A program made the translations under genes and the position numbers. The notes beneath the pieces are model-generated. The model ran no database searches, had not been told where the DNA came from, and saw nothing but the letters and a program-made list of their open reading frames with translations. A DNA stretch of 64,000 nt from Megasphaera paucivorans (GTDB lineage Bacteria; Bacillota; Negativicutes; Veillonellales; Megasphaeraceae): contig NZ_FNHQ01000014.1 of NCBI RefSeq assembly GCF_900103535.1, forward strand, positions 1 through 64,000. The letters are read 5' to 3'. Shown piece after piece: positions 12,605 to 46,202 of the stretch (the stretch's first letter is position 1; each line of letters starts with the position of its first letter).

Positions 12605-13870
12605 ATGAGAAGAATTATTCAGGTTGATGAACGGTTGCCGATATTACCGACCATTCCGTTAAGTTTACAGCATTTATTTGCTATGTTTGGATCTACGGTC
12701 CTGGTTCCTTTTCTACTTCATGTAGATCCGGCCATTGCTTTATTTATGAATGGGATTGGAACTCTTTTGTATTTATACTTGTGTAAAGGACGGCTGCCTG
12801 CTTACCTGGGTTCCAGTTTTGCGTTTATTTCTCCCGTTCTTGCTGTTTGTGCTACCCCGGGAATGACGTACGGAGATGCACAAGGGGGATTTATTGTTTT
12901 CGGGTTTTCCTTCATGATCTTAGCACTGGTAGTAGATAAAGTGGGAACGCACTGGATCGATGTATTATTTCCTCCGGCGGCAATGGGAGCTATTGTCGCT
13001 ATAATCGGACTGGAATTAGCACCCTTGGCGATGACCATGTCCGGATTTTTGGGTGAAACACAAGGAATGACAAATGAAACAGCTATGATCATTTCTATGT
13101 TTACTCTCATTGTTACTATTTTGGCGACCGTATTGGGACGAGGATTTGTCGGTATTATTCCTATATTGATCGGCGTTGTGGCAGGGTACGTTCTTTCTTT
13201 CTTTATGGGTGTAGTCGACTTTACTCCGGTCCGAGAAGCAGCATGGCTGTCAGCGCCAACTTTTTATGCACCGAAGTTTAACCTCAGTGCGATCATGATG
13301 ATTATGCCGGCATTGTTTGTGGTTTTTGCGGAACATTTGGGGCATTTGTTTGTGACAAGTGATATTGTAGGACGTGACCTCATTAAAGATCCGGGACTGC
13401 ATCGTTCGCTATTTGCCGATGGATTGTCTAACGTTATTTCCGGACTTGTTGGATCGACTCCGAATACGACATATGGTGAAAATATGGGAGTTATGGCAAT
13501 TACAGGCGTGTATAGTGTCTGGGTTATTGCCGGTGCTGCGATATTTGCTATTATCTTTTCGTTTGTTGGAAAAATTGCTGCCTTGATTCATGGGATTCCG
13601 ACACCTGTAATGGGGGGAGTATGCATTTTGCTGTTTGGCTTTATTGCCAGTTCCGGCATTCGTATGCTTATTGAAAAAAAGGTAGATTATACACGTTCTA
13701 AGAACCTTATTCTTACGGCGGTAACGATGGTTTCCGGATTAAGCGGAGCTACCATTATTTTGGGGCCGGTACAACTAAAAGGAATGGGACTGGCTACGGT
13801 TGTAGCTATGATTCTGAGCTTAGCTTTTTTGGTGTTTGAAAAATTACATGTCGATAATTACGAAAAATAA
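12605..13870 (+). CDS. uraA: Uracil-xanthine permease (NCS2 family, UraA-like)
   Basis: A 421-residue nucleobase:cation symporter of the NCS2 family with about 14 membrane segments. The UraA-type N terminus ('LPTIPLSLQHLFAMFGSTVLVPFLL') and the substrate-site helices are recognisable: 'AEHLGHLFVTSDIVGRDL' with the conserved Glu, and 'NTTYGENMGVMAITGVYS'. The uracil branch is favoured by the UraA-like N terminus and the E-H-G pattern. It follows the SEDS gene by 28 bases with GAGGAGG as ribosome site. No pyrimidine regulatory leader (PyrR site) is visible. Confidence 0.9.
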   Translation: MRRIIQVDERLPILPTIPLSLQHLFAMFGSTVLVPFLLHVDPAIALFMNGIGTLLYLYLCKGRLPAYLGSSFAFISPVLAVCATPGMTYGDAQGGFIVFGFSFMILALVVDKVGTHWIDVLFPPAAMGAIVAIIGLELAPLAMTMSGFLGETQGMTNETAMIISMFTLIVTILATVLGRGFVGIIPILIGVVAGYVLSFFMGVVDFTPVREAAWLSAPTFYAPKFNLSAIMMIMPALFVVFAEHLGHLFVTSDIVGRDLIKDPGLHRSLFADGLSNVISGLVGSTPNTTYGENMGVMAITGVYSVWVIAGAAIFAIIFSFVGKIAALIHGIPTPVMGGVCILLFGFIASSGIRMLIEKKVDYTRSKNLILTAVTMVSGLSGATIILGPVQLKGMGLATVVAMILSLAFLVFEKLHVDNYEK

Positions 13871-15062: not shown

Positions 15063-15151
15063 GGAAAGGTGTCCGAGTGGTTGAAGGAAGCGGTCTTGAA
15101 AACCGTCGAGCCTCTAAAGCTCCGTGGGTTCGAATCCCACCCTTTCCGCCA
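15063..15151 (+). tRNA. tRNA-Ser (anticodon TGA)
   Basis: The acceptor arms GGAAAGG (15063-15069) and CCTTTCC (15141-15147) pair. The D arm contains GTCCGAGTGGTTGAAGG, the anticodon stem-loop is CGGTCTTGAAAACCG with TGA in the loop, there is a long class II variable arm, and the T arm is GTGGGTTCGAATCCCAC. The discriminator is G and the CCA end is encoded (15149-15151). The long variable arm and the TGA anticodon identify serine (UCA and neighbouring codons). Confidence 0.97.
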
Positions 15152-15200: not shown

Positions 15201-15686
15201 TTATTTAGCTTTTGGGGCTTGTTTTTGGGACTTTTTTTCTGCAACAGGGGCGTTTATTGGAATTATTTTATCGTTTTTTGTTGGGATGTTTATTTTTATT
15301 CCTTGAGATTGAATAGCATCATCAACAATATTGTTTAGTAACATAGTCGGTATTTCTCTTCTGCTGGAAAGAACTTCTGAATAGGCTTTTGCTGTTATTT
15401 GAATATTAGAGTGTCGGGCAAATTCTGATGCTTCTTTAAGATTTACAGATGGAAGAACATATGTCACGGCCATTTTCCGGAATGATTGGATAGATATATG
15501 TGGCAGCCCATATCCCTGGCGTTCCTTGTTCCGTTCTGATTTCTCGGCACAAAGCTTACTTTCTACTTCAGCTTCCATTAGACGTTCACAGAGCCATTTG
15601 AGCATGGATTGCATCGGATCTTCCTCTGATATAAATTTCATTAGCATTTTTTCAAAAGATACGGTAGAATTTAGGTAAGTCATCAT
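15201..15686 (-). pseudogene. Chimera of IS256-type transposase start and tyrosine-integrase end
   Basis: The 161-residue frame joins two unrelated families. Residues 1 to about 59 match the N terminus of mutator/IS256 transposases ('DPMQSMLKWLCERLMEAEVESK' region followed by 'ERQGY'). From about 60 on it matches the C-terminal catalytic part of phage-type tyrosine recombinases ('SFRKMAVTYVLPS', 'ARHSNIQITAKAYSEVL' with the Arg-His and nucleophile-Tyr positions). The junction is near 15506. The integrase R-H-R-H-Y set is incomplete (HxxR is replaced by QSFR), so activity is unlikely. An AAGGAGTG ribosome site precedes the ATG, so it may be translated. It sits 50 bases from a tRNA 3' end, a classical integration site. 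Confidence 0.7.
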
Positions 15687-16608: not shown

Positions 16609-16938
16609 ATGCAGACAATAGTTAATGTATTAAAGGCATTATCTGATGAAACTCGGTTACGAATTTTAAATCTATTATATGAACGGGAACTGTGTGTATG
16701 TGATGTTATGGAAACGTTACAGATTACGCAGACTAAAGCATCCCGGCATCTTTGCTATCTTAAGAATGCGGGATTAGCAGCTGACCGTAAGCAGGCACAA
16801 TGGGCATATTATTCAATATTGCGGGATGAACGGCTGAAATTTCTGGATCGTCTAGTGTATGATAATTTGAGAAGTATAGAAATATATCAAAAAGATATAC
16901 AGCATTTGAATGCATGGCTGCAGCGAAAAAATATGTAA
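16609..16938 (+). CDS. arsR: ArsR/SmtB-family metalloregulatory repressor
   Basis: A 109-residue winged-helix repressor. It has the family start 'LKALSDETRLRILNLLYERELCVCDV' with the ELCVC metal-binding cysteine pair at about residues 27-31 (the As(III)-type alpha-3 site), and the recognition helix 'QTKASRHLCYLKNAGL'. Another Cys (HLCYL) lies in the recognition helix and could be the third ligand. It should dissociate from DNA on binding As(III)/Sb(III) or a similar thiophilic ion. It leads an operon with a thioredoxin-like protein, an ArsP/YraQ-like permease and a CGGC protein, behind its own operator. Confidence 0.92.
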   Translation: MQTIVNVLKALSDETRLRILNLLYERELCVCDVMETLQITQTKASRHLCYLKNAGLAADRKQAQWAYYSILRDERLKFLDRLVYDNLRSIEIYQKDIQHLNAWLQRKNM

Positions 16939-17000
16939 GATTCTGTTTTTATTTTTTTAGTTTAAAAAAACTTATTTATAGTAGAGAAGGGAGGGCAGTC

Positions 17001-17243
17001 ATGATGGAAATTAAAATATTAGGTTCCGGGTGTGCTAATTGCAAAAAACTCGAAGAAAATGCACAAAAAGCGGTTTGTGAATTACAAGTCGATAGTACGA
17101 TTATTAAAGTACAGGATATCCGCGAAATCATGAAATACGGTGTCATGCGGACTCCGGCTATTGTAATCAAGGAAAAGGTGAAAATGGCGGGGAAGGTATG
17201 CACGGTAGAAGAAATTAAGCGATATATTACCGAAGAACAATGA
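17001..17243 (+). CDS. Small thioredoxin-like redox protein
   Basis: An 80-residue glutaredoxin-like protein of the 'redox-active disulfide protein 2' type. The strand 'MEIKILGSGCANCKKLEENA' carries a CxxC (Cys-Ala-Asn-Cys, about residues 11-14), and a cis-Pro loop 'RTPAIVI' follows. The frame extends upstream, but GGGAGGG at about 16989-16995 points to the tandem ATGs at 17001/17004. Such genes often accompany ArsR and YraQ-type permeases, where a role in handling metal(loid)-thiol adducts or reductant supply is assumed, not proven. Confidence 0.87.
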   Translation: MMEIKILGSGCANCKKLEENAQKAVCELQVDSTIIKVQDIREIMKYGVMRTPAIVIKEKVKMAGKVCTVEEIKRYITEEQ

Positions 17244-17276
17244 TTTTCATCATAATGAGCAAGAAGGAGGTGCACT

Positions 17277-18242
17277 ATGTTTGATTGGCTGCAGGTAATT
17301 GCTGATTTTTTAACCTATACGGCGCTGGGTTTTTTGCCGGAGAGCAAACTGGGCAGTGCTATTAATTTCTTTATTTTTGATACAGTCAAAATATTGATAC
17401 TTTTGATAATTATTATTTATGCCATTACGTTTATTCGCAGCTATTTTCCTCCGGAAAAAACAAAAAAGATTCTTTCCCATACAAAAGGAAATCAAGTAGT
17501 CGGACATGTCTTGGCGGCTCTGCTGGGAATCGTAACTCCGTTTTGTTCTTGCTCTGCAGTTCCCCTTTTTATCGGATTTGTAGAAGCCGGAATTCCCTTG
17601 GGTGTGACTTTTTCATTTTTGATTGCGGCACCTATGGTAAATGAAATCGCCGTAGGTCTTTTATACGGTTTGTTTGGCTGGAAAATTATGTTGATTTATA
17701 TTTTATCCGGAGAAATTATTGCTATGATAGGGGGAATGATTATCGGCAGAATGAAAATGGAAAAATTTGTAGAAGCGTATGTTTATGAAATGCAAAATAT
17801 ACCTAGCATGGAAATTGTTGAACCGCGTATGAAAAATAGACTATATGATGCGTGGATTTTTACTCGTGATTTAATTAAACGCATATGGATCTATGTTCTC
17901 CTCGGCATTGCTATCGGCGGTTTTATCCATGGCTGGATTCCGGCGGGAACCTTGGCGCAGTATGCAGGAAAAGACAACCCCTTTGCTGTTCCCATTGCTG
18001 TATTGATCGGAATACCGCTGTACTCCAATGCGGCGGGTGTTATTCCGCTAGTCGGTGAGTTGACTAGAACCGGTGTTTCCATGGGAACGGCGCTTTCGTT
18101 CATGATGGCAGTGACCGCGTTAAGTCTTCCGGAAGCGATTCTTCTAAAACAGGTACTCAAACCGCGTCTGCTGGTTATCTTCTTCGGCGTCGTTGGAATG
18201 GGTATTATCTTTACAGGCTATTTATTCAATTTTTTACTGTAA
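17277..18242 (+). CDS. ArsP/YraQ-family permease (DUF318)
   Basis: A 321-residue membrane protein with about eight hydrophobic segments. The family signature 'IVTPFCSCSAVPLFIGFVEAG' (about residues 82-102, with the CSC motif) and 'SFLIAAPMVNEIA' are intact, with the mirrored second half 'YSNAAGVIPLVGELTRTG'. ArsP members export trivalent organoarsenicals; YraQ relatives are uncharacterised. A GAAGGAGG ribosome site precedes the ATG, 33 bases after the thioredoxin-like gene. Substrate here is inferred only from the ArsR neighbour. Confidence 0.88.
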   Translation: MFDWLQVIADFLTYTALGFLPESKLGSAINFFIFDTVKILILLIIIIYAITFIRSYFPPEKTKKILSHTKGNQVVGHVLAALLGIVTPFCSCSAVPLFIGFVEAGIPLGVTFSFLIAAPMVNEIAVGLLYGLFGWKIMLIYILSGEIIAMIGGMIIGRMKMEKFVEAYVYEMQNIPSMEIVEPRMKNRLYDAWIFTRDLIKRIWIYVLLGIAIGGFIHGWIPAGTLAQYAGKDNPFAVPIAVLIGIPLYSNAAGVIPLVGELTRTGVSMGTALSFMMAVTALSLPEAILLKQVLKPRLLVIFFGVVGMGIIFTGYLFNFLL

Positions 18243-18290
18243 CATGATGTGATATGGCAGAGGTATATGGTGATAGAGGGAGATGGTAAG

Positions 18291-18623
18291 ATGAAAATAG
18301 GCTTGATCAGATGTTTGCAGACAGAGGATATGTGTGGGACGACTCTTTGCTTGAAAGCGATAAAAGAGCATATGGGAGCGTTTCAAGATATCCAGGAAGA
18401 GATTGAACTGATGAATATAAATACTTGTGGGGGATGTCCTGGCAAAAAAGCAATTACCCGGGCTGAAAATATGGTTAAAAACGGCTGTGATACCATTGTT
18501 TTATCTTCTTGCATAACCCAAGGTTCCCCTATTGGATTTCCCTGTCCTAACAAAGATAGAATGCCTTCCGTTTTGCGCAAAAGACTTCGTGACGATATTC
18601 GAATTTTGACATATAGCCATTGA
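18291..18623 (+). CDS. CGGC-domain protein
   Basis: The 110-residue protein begins MKIGLIRCLQTEDMCG and contains the namesake 'CGGCPGKKA' (about residue 46) and 'IVLSSCITQG'. These are typical of the CGGC domain, a cysteine-rich predicted metal-binding domain. An open frame reaches back to 18249, but AGAGGGAG at 18275-18282 favours the ATG at 18291. Last gene of the ArsR cassette, followed by a terminator. Function unknown; the four conserved cysteines suit binding of a thiophilic ion or a cluster. Confidence 0.82.
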   Translation: MKIGLIRCLQTEDMCGTTLCLKAIKEHMGAFQDIQEEIELMNINTCGGCPGKKAITRAENMVKNGCDTIVLSSCITQGSPIGFPCPNKDRMPSVLRKRLRDDIRILTYSH

Positions 18624-20171: not shown

Positions 20172-20200
20172 TTGACAGTGCGTTTTTCCTGCTATATACT
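20172..20200 (+). promoter_or_regulatory. Promoter of leader RNA copy A
   Basis: TTGACA (20172-20177), 17 bases and TATACT (20195-20200). The same arrangement, with 'TTGACAGTG' and 'GCTATATACT' shared, stands before leader copy B at 44321. Confidence 0.9.
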
Positions 20201-20205
20201 TACGT

Positions 20206-20413
20206 TGGTTTAATTGTGAGACGAGGGGGAGCTCCTTTATCTTGCTATATGTATATAAAGACATATTAATGACCGGAAATGCGATGGGAATCCGTGTAAC
20301 GGATTGAGAGGATGCTTGCAGCATCGACCGCCGATACATGATATCGGATGCCTGTTTGGGTACGCATTTTACGGTGGTTCAGACGGGTATTGTATATACC
20401 CGTCTTTTTTTTT
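20206..20413 (+). ncRNA. Structured leader RNA copy A, probable riboswitch of unrecognised class
   Basis: An outer helix TGGTT (20206-20210)/GACCG (20271-20275) encloses the invariant block CGAGGGGGAGC (20222-20232). A second domain is closed by ATGCG (20279-20283)/CGCAT (20363-20367) and holds hairpin ATCCG/CGGAT (20290-20304), invariant TGAGAG, hairpin GATGC/GCATC (20311-20325), invariant GACCG and hairpin CCGATA/TATCGG (20331-20347). It ends in a terminator GACGGGTAT/ATACCCGTC (20382-20404) with nine T. The copy at 44355 shares all loop blocks and shows compensatory stem changes. The promoter lies just upstream and the PhnD-type gene starts at 20476. The 'GGGA-stem-TGAGA-...-ACC' order recalls the pyrimidine-sensing half of TPP riboswitches, but the pyrophosphate-sensing half is not recognisable. 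Confidence 0.8.
20382..20413 (+). terminator. Terminator inside leader RNA copy A
   Basis: GACGGGTAT (20382-20390), loop TGTAT and ATACCCGTC (20396-20404), followed by nine T. It lies 62 bases before the transporter operon, so it acts as a conditional (attenuating) terminator. Confidence 0.92.
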
Positions 20414-20475: not shown

Positions 20476-21498
20476 ATGAAAACAATACGAATACTTGCGG
20501 CGGCGTTATTTATGGGGAGTCTTTTGCTGACAGGCTGCAGCAGTACACCTTCCGGCGGAGACGGGAAGAATATTGCAGAATTGAAGATTGCGATTTCCCC
20601 GTACCAGGATGCCGATACAATGAAGACCCATACGGCGCCGCTTGGTAAGATGATACAAAGTAAAATGAAAGAGAAAGGATATAATATAAAGAAAGTTACC
20701 TTGTCTGTCGGTACCTCGTATAATGCAGTGGGAGAAGCGTTGAGTGCCGGTAGTGCTGACATGGGATTTATTTCAGGAGCCACCTATGTATTGTATGACA
20801 AAGATATTTCCGTTTTACTTACGGCGCTGCGCAACGGTATTGATAAAGATACAACTGATTTGCAGAAATGGAATGATGGAACGCCGGAAAAATTTACTGA
20901 CGATTTGACCCAGTATTATCGTTCCTGCATTATGGTAGGACCGAGTCCGAAGGGACAGGCATTACTGCAGAAGGTAAAGAGCGGACAAAAGCCAACCTGG
21001 CAGGAACTTAATGATCTTACCTGGTCGGTCATGAGTCCGGCATCGGCATCGGGATATATGTATCCGTCCTTGTGGCTGAAAGAACAATATGGCAAGAAAA
21101 TATCTGATTTATCTCATGTGGTCCAGGCTGATTCTTATACGACATCATTAGCACGCCTTGCTTCAGGACAGGTAGATGTTTTGGTGGCCTATTCGCATAT
21201 CCGTGCTAATATGGCTAAAAATTGGCAGACAAAATTAGGTGGGACGCAGGATATATGGGAACAGACAGGCATGATTGCCATAACTGATAAAATTTTTAAC
21301 GACACAGTAAGTGTCAGCAACAATTCTAAAATTATGCAGGATGAAGGTTTCCGAAAAGCATTGGGAGAATCCCTTATTGAAATAGGTAAGACTAAGGAAG
21401 GAATAGAGGTCTTGAAGACAATTGGGCATAAGGGCTATGATTGGGCCGATCGAGCAAATTATGATGGCGAGCGCCAAGTACAGCAATTACTGAAATAA
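20476..21498 (+). CDS. PhnD-type ABC transporter substrate-binding lipoprotein
   Basis: A 340-residue lipoprotein with lipobox LLTGC (Cys21). It belongs to the PhnD/PtxB/SsuA class: 'LKIAISPYQDADTM' opens the first lobe, 'GSADMGFISGATYVL' and 'DVLVAYSHIRANM' are the ligand-side strands. The family binds phosphonates, phosphite and other small anions, but clade members have varied ligands. It is the first gene of an ABC operon with a PhnC-like ATPase and a fused permease, behind leader RNA A and a GGAGG ribosome site. No phosphonate lyase genes are present. The shared leader with the ThiN fusion gene suggests a thiamine-related ligand (inference). Confidence 0.85.
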   Translation: MKTIRILAAALFMGSLLLTGCSSTPSGGDGKNIAELKIAISPYQDADTMKTHTAPLGKMIQSKMKEKGYNIKKVTLSVGTSYNAVGEALSAGSADMGFISGATYVLYDKDISVLLTALRNGIDKDTTDLQKWNDGTPEKFTDDLTQYYRSCIMVGPSPKGQALLQKVKSGQKPTWQELNDLTWSVMSPASASGYMYPSLWLKEQYGKKISDLSHVVQADSYTTSLARLASGQVDVLVAYSHIRANMAKNWQTKLGGTQDIWEQTGMIAITDKIFNDTVSVSNNSKIMQDEGFRKALGESLIEIGKTKEGIEVLKTIGHKGYDWADRANYDGERQVQQLLK

Positions 21499-21511: not shown

Positions 21512-22261
21512 ATGGATATGTTAGAACTGAAAAATGTGTATCAGAGTTATCATAAGCATAAACCTATCCTGCACGGCATTACTCTAACGATCAAACAGGG
21601 GCAGTTCGTGTCTGTGATCGGCCCCAGCGGAGCAGGTAAAACAACCTTACTGCGGCTGTTCAATCATATGGCTTGTCCCGTATCGGGAGAGGTGTGGGTC
21701 GGGGGTCTGCGTTTCGATACGTTGAACGGACAGAAAAGGCGGCAAGTGCAGCATCGTGTGGGAATGGTATTTCAAGATTTTTGTCTGGTTGAAGAAAGTA
21801 CGTGTCTGCAAAATGTGTTGAATGGATGCTTAGCAGATATGCCTATCTGGCGAGTATTAAGCGGTCACTTTCCTGCACGCGTTCAAGAGCAGGCACGAGC
21901 TGCTTTGCAGCAGGTGGGCTTGGCGGAACAGGAACATGCCCTTGCTGCTTCCTTGAGCGGCGGGCAAAAACAGCGGGTAGCCATTGCAAGAGCGTTGCTG
22001 CAAAAAGCGGAGGTACTGCTGGCTGATGAACCGGTGGCCTCCTTAGATCCTATGACAGCACAGCAGATTCTTGTTTTGCTGCGAAAACTTCAGCGTCAGG
22101 AGGGACTGACGGTCGTGATGAATAGTCATAATGTAGAACAAGCCAAAAAATTTTCTGATCGTATTATTGGACTTAGAGAGGGGAAAATATATTATGATGC
22201 AGCGCCGGAACAATGGACAGAACAGGATTTCGTCCAGTTGTATGGACGAGGGATATCGTGA
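21512..22261 (+). CDS. ABC transporter ATP-binding protein (PhnC-like)
   Basis: A 249-residue ATPase with Walker A 'GPSGAGKTT' (about residue 37), signature 'LSGGQKQRVAIARAL', Walker B 'VLLADEPVASLD' and a switch His in 'VVMNSHNVEQA'. The layout and the 'F.QDFCLVEESTCLQNVL' Q-loop region match PhnC. It energises the transporter with the lipoprotein before it and the permease after it. It starts 13 bases after the lipoprotein gene. Its stop overlaps the permease GTG (GTGA). Confidence 0.92.
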   Translation: MDMLELKNVYQSYHKHKPILHGITLTIKQGQFVSVIGPSGAGKTTLLRLFNHMACPVSGEVWVGGLRFDTLNGQKRRQVQHRVGMVFQDFCLVEESTCLQNVLNGCLADMPIWRVLSGHFPARVQEQARAALQQVGLAEQEHALAASLSGGQKQRVAIARALLQKAEVLLADEPVASLDPMTAQQILVLLRKLQRQEGLTVVMNSHNVEQAKKFSDRIIGLREGKIYYDAAPEQWTEQDFVQLYGRGIS

Positions 22262-23796
22262 TATGCAAACATAAGGCCGCAGCGGCAGCATTCTGTATAG
22301 TGCTCATCGTGGCGGCCGGACAGACCGTGGATTTTTCTGCTTTTTTGCTTATACAGAGAGGCAGTCGCTTTTTCGATATTTTTCGGGCAATGCTGCCGCC
22401 GGATACAGCCTATGCTGCTGTCGTTTTACAACCGTTGTGGGCGACTGTTCAAATGTCCTTGGCAGGGACCGCGATAGGAGCTATATGCGGCTTTATAGGA
22501 GCTTTTGTTACCAATGCATACAATAACCAGCACCGGTGGCTGCGGATCCTTTTAAAAGGAATCATTCATTGTATACGTACTATTCCGGTACTTATTTTGG
22601 CTTTGATTTGTACCTTCCTTTTGGGTCTGGGAACGTTGGCGGGAACGATAGGGCTTGCGCTGTATACGTTTGCCGTAATGACCCGCATGGGATATGAGGA
22701 TATAGAGAGTATGTCTTTTATAACGGCACAGACTTTGGAAGCGGCTGGTTGTGGTCGTACCCGGGCGTTTATAAGAACGATTCTTCCGGCCGTTTTGCCG
22801 GGATATATGACAAATGTTTTGTATATATTGGAAGCCAATGTTCGCCATGCTGCTATTTTGGGATATGTGGGAGCCGGCGGAATTGGCATTCTCTTAAATG
22901 AACAGATTTCGTGGCGGCAATATAGTCAAGTGGGGATGATTTTGCTTCTTTTGTATGTCGTAGTATTGAGTACAGAAGGAATAAGCGAATGGCTTCGCCG
23001 GGTGTTGAGGGGTGCAAGAAAACTGACACTGACAGAGCGTTTGGCAGTATGGAGCAGTGTGGTCTTTTTTGCGGGTACGTCGTTGCTGCTGTTGTCCTTT
23101 CCCCATACAGACACTTCCGGCTTTTCTGCAGCCCATGCAATTATAGAGGGGATGATTCATCCTGATTTCGGAATGCTTTTTTCGTTGGAGTATGACGGTG
23201 TGCCGTATTTATTATATGAAACGTTTTGTATTGCTTTTTTAGGTACATTAGCCGGCATGTGCATGGCTGCAGTATTTTCCTTTACGGCTAATTTTCGGTT
23301 ATTTCCCTGTCCGGCAGCCTTATTCGCCAGACTTGTATTGCTTTTTATACGAACGGTACCTGTATTTGTTTATGGACTGATGTGGATCCGTGTTACGGGA
23401 CCGGGACCTTTTGCCGGAGTTTTGACATTAGCCGTATGCAGTATTGGGTTACTGGCGAAACGCTTTATTATTGCTATTGATGATATGGATTTTCGTACGT
23501 ATCGGGCATATACTGCTATGGGCGTTTCTTTTTTAGGAAAAGTAAAATATGTTATGTTGCCGCAAATTTATCCCAGATATGTATCGGCTGTGTTGTACCG
23601 GTTTGATATCAATATACGGGATGCGGCTGTATTGGGACTCGTTGGTGCCGGCGGAATCGGGACACCGCTGATGTTAGCCATGATGCATTATAACTGGTCT
23701 GAAGCGGGAGCTCTTTTATGGGGGTTGATGTTACTGGTAACGGGTGTGGAAATAGTATCAGAACAAAGTCGGAAAAAAAGAGGAATCAATACATGA
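22258..23796 (+). CDS. Fused double ABC permease (PhnE-PhnE)
   Basis: 512 residues with two tandem PhnE-like permease domains joined in one chain. Each has an EAA-type loop: 'GYVGAGGIGILLNEQISWRQY' in the first and 'GLVGAGGIGTPLMLAMMHYNW' in the second. Each is preceded by the 'FIRT..P..' pattern ('HCIRTIPVLILALI' and 'LFIRTVPVFVYGLM'). An open frame begins at 22213, but the GTG at 22258 overlaps the ATPase stop by 4 bases and has GAGGGA just upstream, so I take it as start. A fused pair removes the need for homodimerisation. A terminator follows. Confidence 0.88.
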   Translation: MICKHKAAAAAFCIVLIVAAGQTVDFSAFLLIQRGSRFFDIFRAMLPPDTAYAAVVLQPLWATVQMSLAGTAIGAICGFIGAFVTNAYNNQHRWLRILLKGIIHCIRTIPVLILALICTFLLGLGTLAGTIGLALYTFAVMTRMGYEDIESMSFITAQTLEAAGCGRTRAFIRTILPAVLPGYMTNVLYILEANVRHAAILGYVGAGGIGILLNEQISWRQYSQVGMILLLLYVVVLSTEGISEWLRRVLRGARKLTLTERLAVWSSVVFFAGTSLLLLSFPHTDTSGFSAAHAIIEGMIHPDFGMLFSLEYDGVPYLLYETFCIAFLGTLAGMCMAAVFSFTANFRLFPCPAALFARLVLLFIRTVPVFVYGLMWIRVTGPGPFAGVLTLAVCSIGLLAKRFIIAIDDMDFRTYRAYTAMGVSFLGKVKYVMLPQIYPRYVSAVLYRFDINIRDAAVLGLVGAGGIGTPLMLAMMHYNWSEAGALLWGLMLLVTGVEIVSEQSRKKRGINT

Positions 23797-36709: not shown

Positions 36710-39307
36710 TTATAGCAACTCTCCATATTTCTTTACATAAAGATTTTTTCTAAAAGTAACCAGAATCATATATCCTGCAATAATAATACTTAGTAAAATA
36801 AAGTAAGAAAACGGCAGAGAATGAAGTCCGATAGCATTGCCCAGTGTGGTGAAAGGTATCAGCGTCAATATGGCAATTCCCATAAAGGTAAGCAGGGTTA
36901 CTTGCCAAGAAGCATGACTTTGGAAAAAAGGAATTTTAGGTGTTCGCAGCATATGAATAACTAATGTTTGACTCCACATGGATTCAATAAACCAACCGGT
37001 TTGAAAAAGAGAAATAAAAAGCAACTGCTGATTTTCGCCAAGTGAGTAGTAAGATCCGCCGCATATAGCGGGGCAAACGATAAAATACATAAGAATATAA
37101 GTTGCAATATCAAAAATAGAACTGATAGGACCTAAATCTATCATAAAACGACTGATGGAAAGGGCATCCCATTTCCGCGGCATATTGAGGTAATCTATAT
37201 CTACATTGTCCCATGGAATTGCTGTACAGGAAATGTCATAAATCATATTCAGCAGAATAAGGTGAATTGCCGACATAGGAAGAAATGGCAGGAAAGCGCT
37301 CGCAATGAGAACAGAAAACATATTGCCAAAGTTTGATGAAGCGGTCATTTTAATATATTTAATCATATTGGCATAGGTCTTTCGGCCTTCCAGGATACCT
37401 TTTTCCAAAACAAGAAGATTTTTTTCCAACAAGATGACGTCTGCCGATTCTTTTGCAATATCTACGGCGGTGTCAACAGAAATACCGACATCAGCTGCTT
37501 TCATTGCAACTGCATCATTGATACCATCTCCCATATATCCGACGCTATGACCGTTTTTTCGCAGCGCAGTTACGACTCGTTCTTTTTCTGTAGGGGATAA
37601 TTTGGCGAAAATCGTTGTTTTTTCTGCTTTTTGGCATAACATCGCGTCGTCCATACCCGCTAGTTCCGAACCGAGCAGTATTCCTTCTATAGTAAGTCCG
37701 ACCTGCTGACAGATACATTGTGTTACTTTTTCATTATCACCGGTTAAAATTTTGACGGTAACTCCGGAATCATGTAATGCTTTGATTGCAGCAGCCGTTG
37801 TTTCCTTGGGAGGATCAAGAAATGCGAGATACCCGATAAGGACCATGTCTGCTTCATCTGCAGTAGAAAAAGAATCAACAGGAGACGGATTTGTTTTTTG
37901 AGCAACTCCAAGGACGCGCATGCCTTTGCTGTTAAGTTTATCTACGTGGTTAAGAACTAGTTGCTTCATAGGTTCTGTCAGTTCCATAACTTGATTTTGA
38001 TATTCTACATACGAAGAGATGCGGAGCATTTCTTCAATGGCACCTTTGGTAATGAGTTGTGTCTTTCCCGTGGTGTCGGCGACGACAACGCTCATACGGC
38101 GCCGTTCAAAGTCAAACGGAATTTCATCGACCTTGTTGTATTTATCTTCAATAACAGCATGAGAACCGTCTGTTTTGACCAATTCTTTTGTTCGGTCGAT
38201 GATAGCGATATCCATAAGATTTTTTAGGCCCGTTTGATAGTAACTGTTTAAAAAAGCATGACGCAGGACTCGCGTATCTTCATTTCCTGTAATATCTAAA
38301 TGGCATTCAAGCACTACTTTATCCTGTGTAAGGGTGCCCGTTTTGTCGGTACATAGGATATCCATGGATCCAAGGTTTTGTATGGCATTCAGATTTTTGA
38401 TGATAACTTGTTCCTGTGACATAGCAACGGCCCCTTTGGCAAGACAGGTGGTTACGATCATAGGAAGCATTTCCGGAGTTAACCCGACTGCAACGGAAAT
38501 AGCAAATAAAGCGGCATTCATCCAATCACCCTTGGTAAAGCCATTAATGAACAGTACGACAGGTACCATAATCAGCATGAATCGAATAAGGACCCAGGAC
38601 ACCGAATTGACGCCTTTATCAAAGGTGGTAGCCACGGGTTTCTTATTTAAATGTTTGGCAATTTGGCCCAGCATAGTCGCATTTCCTACCGTTTGGACAA
38701 TGGCTATGCCGCTGCCGCTGACAACAGTACTGCCCATAAAAACTAAGTTTTTGTTTTCGGGTGAGATTTCTTCACTGCCGGCATACACGCCTGTTTTTTC
38801 CAGCGGTTCACTTTCACCGGTAAGTGCCGATTGACTGATAAAAAGGTCTTTGGCGGTTATAATCTGCATGTCGGCAGGAATCATATCGCCAGCCGAAATA
38901 TAAACGATATCGTCAACCACGATTTCGCTTATGGGAATTTCTTGTTTTCCTGATTCTTGACGTTCTATGCAGGCTGTAGTTTGTATCATATCGCTCAATT
39001 TTGAGGCGGCATTTCCTGAACGGGTTTCTTGTACAAAACGAAGGATACCGGAAATGAGAACCATAGTAGTAATAATGCCGACTGTAGTCGGATTCGCTTC
39101 CCCGGGTTCTGCCATAATAATGTCGGTAAAAGCCGATACAACAGCTAAAATGAATAGTACGATAGTAAAAGGATTGATAAAAGCATTGACTATACGTTTT
39201 GACAAAGGAATTTTTTTGCCGTGTGTTACGGCATTGGTACCAAATCGTTGACGCGATTCAAGTACTTGTTTTGCCGTCAGTGCAGATGCCGTTAGTGTTT
39301 TTTTCAT
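36710..39307 (-). CDS. mgtA: Magnesium-translocating P-type ATPase
   Basis: An 865-residue P3B ATPase for Mg2+ uptake. The phosphorylation site is '[15 protein letters not shown]' (about 335), the hinge '[17 protein letters not shown]', and the transport helices include '[21 protein letters not shown]' and '[17 protein letters not shown]', typical of MgtA/MgtB. The frame runs 20 codons further upstream, but AGGAGG directly before the ATG at 39307 sets the start. An M-box Mg2+ riboswitch with its terminator and a small ORF precede it, which strongly supports Mg2+ as substrate. Confidence 0.95.
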
Positions 39308-39378
39308 AAGTCTGTACCTCCTGTGGTAAATGATGGCGTAAGCCATTGTTGGAGAACACAGACACAAGTCCGAAAAAA

Positions 39379-39632: not shown

Positions 39633-39652
39633 AAAATAACAGCACATATTGC

Positions 39653-39808
39653 AACCGTTTGAGCTTTGGCTCAATAGGGCGATGTAACTGCATTATTCAA
39701 TGCCTTGGCTTCGACATTGACTGTTCAGACCGTCTTATGATGTCTCCATCATTTCGTGGCAGCAGTCCGTATCCCTATAGTAGCCTCACTTATCGGAGTG
39801 TTGATTCA
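39653..39808 (-). ncRNA. M-box (ykoK) magnesium riboswitch
   Basis: On the minus strand the RNA reads GTGAGGCTACTATAGGGATA near its 5' side, then ACTGCTGCC, a middle section with AATGTCGAAGCCAAGGCATT, then ATGCAGTTACATCGCCCTAT and finally GAGCCAAAGCTC. This order and spelling match the M-box class (compare 'GUGAGGCUCCUAUAUAGAGAUAC', 'GCUGCUGCC', 'AUGCAGCUGGAUGCUUGUCCUAU', 'CUAAAGCUC'). Mg2+ binding stabilises the compact fold and the downstream terminator forms. It precedes mgtA, the expected target. Confidence 0.93.
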
Positions 39809-44320: not shown

Positions 44321-44349
44321 TTGACAGTGTGTTTAGGGTGCTATATACT
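44321..44349 (+). promoter_or_regulatory. Promoter of leader RNA copy B
   Basis: TTGACA (44321-44326), 17 bases and TATACT (44344-44349), the same as at leader copy A. Confidence 0.9.
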
Positions 44350-44354
44350 AAAGC

Positions 44355-44539
44355 TGGTTTACTTGTGAAGTGAGGGGGAGCGCCCTGGCTTTGCTGCAGA
44401 ACATATATAGTGATGACCAATATGCGATGGGAGCCTGTATGACAGGTTGAGAGGATACTGTTAGTATCGACCGCTTACTCTTCCGGAGGTGCGCATTTTT
44501 GGCGTTTTTTAGGGCGGGTAAGAGAACCGCTCTTTTTTT
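44355..44539 (+). ncRNA. Structured leader RNA copy B, probable riboswitch of unrecognised class
   Basis: The outer helix is TGGTT (44355-44359)/GACCA (44415-44419) around TGAGGGGGAGC (44371-44381). The second domain is closed by ATGCG (44422-44426)/CGCAT (44492-44496). Inside are hairpin GCCTGT/ACAGGT (44433-44447), TGAGAG, hairpin GATAC/GTATC (44454-44468) and GACCG. It ends in a terminator AGGGCGGGT/ACCGCTCT (44511-44533) with a T run. Compared with copy A, stems change by compensation (GATGC/GCATC to GATAC/GTATC; ATCCG/CGGAT to CCTGT/ACAGG) while single-stranded blocks stay the same. The third inner hairpin of copy A is missing here. The AIRS-ThiN gene starts at 44625. Confidence 0.8.
44511..44539 (+). 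terminator. Terminator inside leader RNA copy B
   Basis: AGGGCGGGT (44511-44519) and ACCGCTCT (44526-44533) pair with one bulged G and one G-T pair, followed by seven T. Located 86 bases before the gene it controls. Confidence 0.82.
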
Positions 44540-44624
44540 GCTGCTATTTTTGATTTTATGGAAAAGTGAATAAAGGCAATTAAAATTATTTTATTTTGAA
44601 AGTATGATACAGGAGGGAATACCA

Positions 44625-46202
44625 ATGATAGGAAAAGTAAATGATGATTTTTTTCGAAAACATGTGCTGACTCAGACAGGAACGCAGGCAGAATCTGTCG
44701 TTATTGGACCTCATATGGGAGTCGATGCGGCCATATTGAGGCTTTCAGATTCATATATGGCAGTTGCTGAAGATCCGATTTTTCCCAGTTTGTCTATGAC
44801 AGCCGATGATTTTGCCTTTGTAACCGTTCATATAGGGGCTAGTGATATTGCCGTTATGGGAATACAACCTCGTTATATGACATATTCCTTACTGCTGCCG
44901 CCGGATACGGAGGAAGATTATATTGCGGAACTTATTGCAGCTATCAGTCGGTATGCGAAAGAAATCGGCATTACGATTGTAGGGGGACATACCGGTTTTT
45001 ATGGAGCCGTTACGGTACCTACTATTGGCGGTATCACCGTATGGGGAACCGGTGATACCTATATATCGCCGATGGGAGCACAAGACGGGGATAATGTTAT
45101 TATTACTAAAGGCTGCGGAGTAGAAGCCGCTGCCTTATTATCATTTGAGTTACAGGAGATTCTCAAGGACAATATAGATACAGACGATTTACAACGATCC
45201 CTTGCGCGGATGCATGAAGTTTCGGTTGTAAAGGATGCCTGCATAGCGGCACACAATCGTGGCGTTCATGCTATGCATGATGCCACGGAGGGAGGCGTAA
45301 AACGTGGTGTATGGGAAATTGCGCAGGCTTCCGGAAAGGGAGTCGTCATTAATACAAAAGATTTATTGCGGCCGCATGATATAGAAGCTGTTTGCGGGTA
45401 TTTTAACCTGAATACATGGGAAATCATTAGTGAAGGGACATTAGTGCTTACCTGTGCACCGGAAACAACCGAAAAGCTTTTGAACGACTATGAAAAAGCA
45501 GGGATAAAGGCCCGGATTATCGGAACCATTACAAAATCATCACAGGGTTGTATGTATTTAGAAAATGGAGATTTAAAAGAACTCGTGCCGCCAAGCAGAG
45601 ACAAATTCTGGGATGTTTTTTTTGAAGCAGCAGCACTTCACGCGAATAAGATACAATCAGAGGAAGAAAAGTTGTGTGCGGCATTGAAACAAACTGCAGC
45701 TATATTTTGTGATGAGAATATTTATAAACTTTTACCGGAAATTGGAGCTAATATTGCTTGTGTGAAAAAGAATGGCAAACAACTTAGCCAGGTGGCAGGA
45801 ATACCTGGCAGAATTATCTGTGTTAAGGATACGGCGGTTGCAGTAAGCGAACCGGAAATGGGGGCAAGTGTCCATATGGGAGAATCCATTCTTGAAGTGC
45901 GCAAGTATTTTCCTGAAGCAGCCTGTATAATGAATTTACGTAAGAACAAGGCGGTTTTGCAGGCTTGTGATATGGCAGGACTTACTACTATTGATATGCC
46001 GCCGTGTAAAAATTATCAACAGAAAGGGAATGAATTTCTGATTGATTTGGATACGGTTTTAGCACATTGTGATGTACTTCCCGATATTTTGACGACCCCG
46101 GATCGAATTAATCTGGAAACATTAATTTTAGTTATAGGTACTTCCTTGATAGATTTAGAAAGAAAAGTACTAAGTATTAAAAAAAATTATAAGTCAATAT
46201 AA
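44625..46202 (+). CDS. AIRS-like (HypE/ThiL type) kinase domain fused to ThiN thiamine-phosphate synthase domain
   Basis: 525 residues. The first about 330 have the AIR-synthase-related fold: 'GVDAAILRL' and 'VAEDPIF' at the start, 'GASDIAVMGIQPRYMTYSLLLP', 'TIVGGHTGFYGAVT' and 'HDATEGGVKRGVWEIAQASG', similar to HypE and ThiL. Residues about 350-515 match ThiN: 'LLPEIGANIACV', 'GIPGRI' (about 391), 'MGASVHMGESIL' (about 411, with the conserved His) and 'IMNLRK' (about 435). ThiN domains make thiamine phosphate from HMP-PP and thiazole phosphate; ThiL (AIRS fold) phosphorylates thiamine phosphate to TPP. A two-step TPP enzyme is a reasonable reading but not proven. AGGAGGG at 44611-44617 sets the ATG at 44625. 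It is controlled by leader RNA B. Confidence 0.82.
   Translation: MIGKVNDDFFRKHVLTQTGTQAESVVIGPHMGVDAAILRLSDSYMAVAEDPIFPSLSMTADDFAFVTVHIGASDIAVMGIQPRYMTYSLLLPPDTEEDYIAELIAAISRYAKEIGITIVGGHTGFYGAVTVPTIGGITVWGTGDTYISPMGAQDGDNVIITKGCGVEAAALLSFELQEILKDNIDTDDLQRSLARMHEVSVVKDACIAAHNRGVHAMHDATEGGVKRGVWEIAQASGKGVVINTKDLLRPHDIEAVCGYFNLNTWEIISEGTLVLTCAPETTEKLLNDYEKAGIKARIIGTITKSSQGCMYLENGDLKELVPPSRDKFWDVFFEAAALHANKIQSEEEKLCAALKQTAAIFCDENIYKLLPEIGANIACVKKNGKQLSQVAGIPGRIICVKDTAVAVSEPEMGASVHMGESILEVRKYFPEAACIMNLRKNKAVLQACDMAGLTTIDMPPCKNYQQKGNEFLIDLDTVLAHCDVLPDILTTPDRINLETLILVIGTSLIDLERKVLSIKKNYKSI

Follow-up and report, generated by a model that had tools for sequence, protein, structure and literature searches.

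Two leader RNAs in a 64,000-nucleotide stretch of the genome of Megasphaera paucivorans (contig NZ_FNHQ01000014.1, positions 1 to 64,000, in the following the window), at 20172-20413 (copy A) and 44321-44539 (copy B), probably belong to a widespread and uncatalogued riboswitch class that, judged from sequence, is related to the thiamin pyrophosphate (TPP) riboswitch and controls thiazole salvage and thiamin-phosphate synthesis. It is likely that the class goes back to a TPP aptamer which lost the pyrophosphate arm and acquired a docking hairpin, that it senses a compound of the thiamin pathway other than TPP, namely thiamin, thiamin monophosphate (TMP), hydroxymethylpyrimidine (HMP) pyrophosphate (HMP-PP) or a thiazole, and that, together with TPP riboswitches, it makes up two-input gates in Clostridia and Negativicutes of the gut. 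The finding holds and goes beyond the duplicated structured leader of the initial annotation; by computation, it points to a new TPP-related class. A covarying aptamer conserved in the 5' leaders of the genes of one pathway, a general hallmark of riboswitches, is present.

A conserved core with covarying helices

Reading and alignment of the two copies reveal a common promoter, common stems and the blocks GAGGGGGAGC, ATGCGATGGGA, TGAGAGGAT and ATCGACCGC, and each copy ends in an intrinsic terminator. The shared promoter with identical -35 and -10 elements at 17-nucleotide spacing and the invariant blocks, as initially described, are indeed present in both copies, the terminators lie just before the coding regions that start at 20476 and 44604 (Table 1), and the compensatory stems had been read correctly, with ATCCG/CGGAT in copy A against GCCTG/CAGGT in copy B for P3 and GATGC/GCATC against GATAC/GTATC for P3a. 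The original list of conserved parts holds for blocks and stems but left out the 5' hairpin at 20216-20245, the loop of which, GGAGCK, is the most constant part of the conserved RNA, as well as the helix P1. The common core consists of this hairpin, P0, of the covarying P1, with one strand between P0 and P2 and the other one after the linker, and of a P2/P3/P3a arm (GGGA..UGAGAGG..CGACC), which corresponds to the pyrimidine-binding arm of TPP riboswitches (GGG..UGAGA..ACC).

The covariation that the initial annotation had proposed to look for is strong in the homologues. In an alignment of 114 sequences, standard pairs make up 94.1% of the pairs of P0, P2, P3 and P3a versus 76.0 +/- 0.5 after shuffling, the covariation score is 0.497 versus 0.144 +/- 0.007 for shuffled and at most 0.098 for slid alignments, and 421 double-change cells compare with 122 in the control. 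Equally, P1 strands pair better with their own partner than with the partners of other members (mean score 17.8 versus 12.5, p = 7e-18). The stem of P0 frequently contains a G-G mismatch, the hexaloop is constant, and four members found only by the covariance model (L066, L067, L068 and L194) keep a GGAGCG loop with changed stem pairs. The constancy of GGGGGAGCKCC, CGANGGR and TGAGAG has to be discounted to some extent, since it is partly imposed by an exact-pattern genome scan that fixed these letters; the pattern put no such constraint on the pairs that covary in P1, P3, P3a and the lower part of P0. In thiW-type members (for example L099, L116, L147 and L051) an extra small variable hairpin directly 5' of P0 replaces the outer helix of the window copies.

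The homologues, which clearly exceed 100 and come from Clostridia and Negativicutes, were collected by DNA pattern and covariance model. A first model built from six sequences already displayed strong covariation; relatives in other Negativicutes came from a class-wide pattern scan, and one locus, first met as a weak TPP match, lies before an orthologous PhnD gene (L028). Scanning 84,980 species genomes with the pattern GGGGGAGCKCC..CGANGGR..TGAGAG gave at least 116 loci, nearly all of them in Clostridia and Negativicutes; the Clostridia among the matches listed include Oscillospiraceae, Lachnospiraceae, Clostridium carboxidivorans and Faecalibacterium prausnitzii. With the model at E 1e-5, the RNA was recovered in 12 of 398 sampled Bacillota genomes (nine above 65 bits, three below 38 bits), and seven out of 17 genomes of the Megasphaeraceae, the family of the window, carry it. 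Exactly two copies occur in the M. paucivorans genome, and the only congener examined equally has two, with cores identical to copies A and B; taken together with the more than 100 homologues and the covariation score, this places the leader pair beyond chance. Several candidates were discarded: L032 proved to be a TPP riboswitch of the ordinary kind, the pattern matches in L033, L034, L149 and L152 are due to chance, and a weak match of the covariance model R2 at 12928-13012 of the window lacks any conserved block. No such RNA class was found in the literature among open-licence papers, subscription-only papers being outside the search.

The 118 downstream proteins, found without annotation, comprise 96 ThiW, 17 PhnD-type proteins, four ThiM and one ThiN fusion, the latter behind copy B (PF10120 at E 1e-31, with PF00586 and PF02769); no gene of the pyrimidine branch is among them. 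The downstream ThiW proteins fall into two subgroups characterized by GSxFSFP..SKCAPxQHMVN and GVVISPxLRxEGMCPMAHFIN, which perhaps differ in substrate.

Relation to the TPP riboswitch

No Rfam family reaches its cut-off in either copy, in agreement with the initially proposed unrecognised class. In Rfam, the suspected likeness to the pyrimidine-binding half of the TPP riboswitch shows only as a sub-threshold match of copy B in a permissive search (23.2 bits, E 0.016, cut-off 54.3), which aligns over this half; copy A has no TPP match even in the permissive search. Weak matches of copy A to the L20 leader and other families (E 0.3-7) are far under the cut-offs, the best of them lying on the terminator, and were dismissed as chance. 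Equally, a representative Clostridial member is without Rfam match even at E 5, and no family was assigned to the motif itself in 18 scanned loci. TPP riboswitches of the same genomes read AGGGGAGC..GGCUGAGAGGAAG..CUUCGACCC..CCUGAU..UAAUGCC..CGUAGG and have UGAGAGGAnn..nnUCGACC in common with the new RNA. The pyrophosphate half CCUGAU..UAAU..CGUAGG, the absence of which had been noticed initially in the two copies, is found in none of 140 members versus all 16 TPP riboswitches of the same genome set, and with model R2 the window copies score 72.1 and 68.8 bits versus 32.8 and 20.2 bits for TPP riboswitches. P0 and the variable P4 would stand in place of the pyrophosphate arm. These patterns suggest that the new RNA descends from the TPP aptamer, convergence on a TPP-like arm being the alternative. 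As P0 (GGGGGAGCGCC) resembles the start of the TPP P2/P3 (AGGGGAGCUU), P0 itself may be derived from a TPP arm.

The two RNAs are also neighbours. Among the 18 loci scanned with cmscan, 13 have TPP riboswitches, which are arranged in tandem upstream of the new RNA in 12. By pattern, the new RNA is located directly 3' of a TPP riboswitch in 65 of 134 members, with the tandem before 53 of 93 thiW, all four thiM and none of 15 PhnD genes. The order of the Veillonella type is TPP riboswitch, terminator, new RNA and thiW. In L099 (3576-4002, minus strand) and L131 (3957-4385, minus strand), the new RNA comes third in a triple array, behind a pair of TPP riboswitches and ahead of thiW. In M. paucivorans, two TPP riboswitches of the ordinary kind, one at 73.2 bits and one at 51.2 bits, which falls slightly short of the cut-off, precede thiC and a gene for a CytX-like HMP transporter, gene names that reflect our own reading of the sequences. 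In this genome, the pyrimidine branch thus appears to be guarded by TPP sensors, and thiN and the PhnDCE-type transporter by the new RNA. The thiG and thiM-thiW leaders of M. paucivorans showed neither an Rfam class nor the new RNA within about 1 kb upstream, and neither was found in the thiM/thiW leaders of relatives.

Direction of switching and candidate ligands

Folding models indicate that the RNA is probably an OFF switch with ligand. In Veillonella-type members the start codon of thiW is located inside P1 (UCAUUACA/UGUAAUGA), and among 43 translational members the openness of the Shine-Dalgarno sequence is 0.33 with P1 formed versus 0.39 otherwise, a difference that is reversed with shuffled spacers (p = 0.01). 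Aptamer and terminator coexist in the fold of copy A, and the fold of copy B contains an anti-terminator and excludes P1. The Veillonella P1, the Shine-Dalgarno openness and the two folds jointly suggest that formation of the aptamer turns expression OFF. The ligand would stabilise P1 upon binding; the thiW start codon would then be buried in Veillonella, and the anti-terminator strand of copies A and B would be sequestered so that the terminator can form.

The pocket narrows the choice of ligand. As the TPP-type pocket is retained, the ligand is expected to possess an aminopyrimidine ring, and as the pyrophosphate arm is missing, it would not need the pyrophosphate site of TPP. Thiamin or TMP, which agree with the pocket and with the OFF direction and disagree with the branch specificity, rank first as a tentative choice, followed by HMP-PP, by hydroxyethylthiazole (HET) or its phosphate (HET-P), and by TPP.

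Several observations weigh against this combined picture. The OFF signal is modest across the translational members, with openness falling in 20 and rising in nine. The complementarity between linker and terminator is significant in few members only (copy A, p = 0.01; L031, p = 0.02), and a general anti-terminator of this kind is unsupported outside copies A and B and a few others; a mutually exclusive platform is clear in Veillonella and in copies A and B and weak on average. A sensor of thiamin or TMP should also precede genes of the pyrimidine branch, which are lacking among the downstream genes, and a sensor of HMP-PP would be expected to be ON, like the thiS motif, an HMP-PP riboswitch and ON switch with a small aptamer inside the terminator hairpin (PMC6478431).

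A second class of HMP-PP riboswitch, in which HMP-PP turns thiazole genes ON and which takes over the role and the genomic place of the thiS motif, is a possibility we regard as rather doubtful. The gene set, with thiazole branch, thiW and TMP synthase, and the tandem order behind the TPP riboswitch correspond to the thiS motif (PMC6478431) and the pyrimidine pocket is retained, but the platforms indicate OFF upon formation of P1 and no helix that might compete with P1 once ligand is bound was found in the Veillonella leaders. A sensor of HET or HET-P that shuts off uptake and phosphorylation of thiazole is unlikely: while all assigned downstream genes are in or beside the thiazole branch and the OFF architecture would amount to simple product feedback, the pyrimidine pocket of TPP is fully conserved and repression of thiN behind copy B by its own substrate would make little sense. 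That the RNA is an aberrant TPP riboswitch, with TPP binding retained and P0 as substitute of the pyrophosphate arm, is more improbable still; half of the aptamer is common with TPP, tandem TPP-TPP riboswitches exist and the OFF logic fits, but the second half is lacking in all 140 members, the motif is a third element in the arrays with two TPP riboswitches (L099 and L131) and ordinary TPP riboswitches control other genes in the same genome. That the leaders are protein-bound or ligand-free conserved attenuators is least credible in view of the conserved loops and TPP-type pocket, the restriction to genes of one vitamin pathway and the combination of one constant core with varied platforms, terminator as well as start-codon burial.

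Features of the window and comparison with known systems

Table 1. Elements of the two leaders and the genes behind them, in window coordinates.
Feature	Position	Strand	Details
Copy A promoter	20172..20200	+	-35 TTGACA 20172-20177; -10 TATACT 20195-20200; 17-nucleotide spacer; common to copy B
Copy A 5' domain	20207..20274	+	Outer helix GGTTTAAT (20207-20214)/ATTAATGACC (20265-20274) around P0 and a variable hairpin; covarying in 6 homologues
Copy A P0 hairpin	20216..20245	+	Conserved GGGGGAGCTCC 20225-20235; loop GGAGCT
Copy A P1, 5' strand	20273..20283	+	CCGGAAATGCG; partner 20363-20374; P1 covaries in homologues
Copy A TPP-like pyrimidine arm	20284..20331	+	P2 GG 20286-87/CC 20328-29; P3 20290-20304; UGAGAGG 20305-20311; P3a 20311-20325; GACCGC
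Copy A linker	20331..20362	+	P4 CCGATA/TATCGG and P5 TGCCT/GGGTA where TPP has the pyrophosphate arm; ATGCCTGTTT 20348-20357 complementary to terminator 5' arm (p = 0.01 versus shuffles)
Copy A P1, 3' strand	20363..20374	+	CGCATTTTACGG
Copy A intrinsic terminator	20381..20413	+	AGACGGGTAT/ATACCCGTCT and T-run
PhnD-type substrate-binding lipoprotein of ATP-binding cassette (ABC) transporter	20476..21498	+	PF12974; under PhnD equivalog cut-off; predicted to bind a thiamin precursor
PhnC-type ABC ATPase	21512..22261	+	TIGR02315 above cut-off
Fused PhnE1-PhnE2 permease	22213..23796	+	TIGR01097, two stretches
Copy B promoter	44321..44349	+	TTGACA 44321-44326/TATACT 44344-44349; 17-nucleotide spacer
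Copy B 5' domain	44356..44418	+	Outer helix GGTTTACT/GTGATGACC
Copy B P0 hairpin	44365..44394	+	GGGGGAGCGCC at 44374-44384
Copy B P1, 5' strand	44417..44426	+	CCAATATGCG; partner CGCATTTTTGG 44492-44502
Copy B TPP-like pyrimidine arm	44427..44474	+	P2/P3/UGAGAGG/P3a/GACCGC; TPP 23.2 bits
Copy B anti-terminator strand	44474..44480	+	CTTACTC; pairs with GGGTAAG 44516-44522 (minimum-energy fold)
Copy B intrinsic terminator	44511..44539	+	AGGGCGG/CCGCTCT and T-run
AIRS-AIRS_C-ThiN fusion	44604..46202	+	ThiL-like domain and thiamin-phosphate synthase ThiN; ATG 44604 or 44625

Control by the new RNA would imply that the PhnDCE-type system behind copy A takes up a thiamin precursor, perhaps the thiazole. 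Ten of the 17 downstream PhnD-type proteins have a weak match to the thiamine-pyrophosphate-binding p37/Cypl family. No sequence relative of the binding protein of copy A was found in the PDB; its structural model (predicted local distance difference test score 88) has a fold like PhnD and PtxB and also like MG289/Mh-p37, so that the fold does not fix the substrate. ThiW, the known candidate HET transporter, is present in only 64% of the gut genomes that require HET (PMC6593275).

Elsewhere in the window, an M-box (magnesium) riboswitch (98.7 bits, 39643-39804, minus strand) is located upstream of a gene for a P-type cation ATPase (36710-39367, minus strand). A tRNA gene with a long variable arm (15063-15148, plus strand, 57.7 bits) is followed by a minus-strand open reading frame (15201-15686) that by eye resembles an integrase fragment, and the cluster at 16609-18623, equally read by eye, encodes an ArsR-type regulator, a small thioredoxin-like protein, a permease and a CGGC-type protein.

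If the proposed reading is true, a riboswitch can change its ligand by keeping one half of the binding site and replacing the other, and in gut bacteria a second input would be added to many thiW genes that are under TPP control. Furthermore, an ABC transporter annotated as 'phosphonate' would be tied to the uptake of thiamin precursors, and a concrete, testable set of ligands results from the new RNA class.

According to a review citing unpublished work of the Breaker laboratory (PMC9481103, reference 82), thiamin or TMP is the preferred ligand of some RNAs that are assigned to the TPP riboswitches. These variants are TPP-related with changed specificity and possibly in tandem with TPP riboswitches, as would hold for the new RNA, which, however, is not classed as TPP by Rfam; as the variants are known by description only, the two might overlap. 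With RF00059 itself, the new RNA shares the P2/P3/P3a arm (GGGA, UGAGAGG, CGACC), P1, the association with thiamin genes and control by termination or at the ribosome-binding site, but it has the 5' hairpin GGGGGAGCKCC, lacks the pyrophosphate half, scores below the gathering cut-off and is employed beside TPP riboswitches within the same leaders. The thiS motif equally precedes thiazole-branch genes including thiW and the gene for TMP synthase, often directly 3' of a TPP riboswitch, whereas the new RNA is much larger, consists of multiple helices separate from the terminator, possesses a TPP-type arm and is probably an OFF switch.
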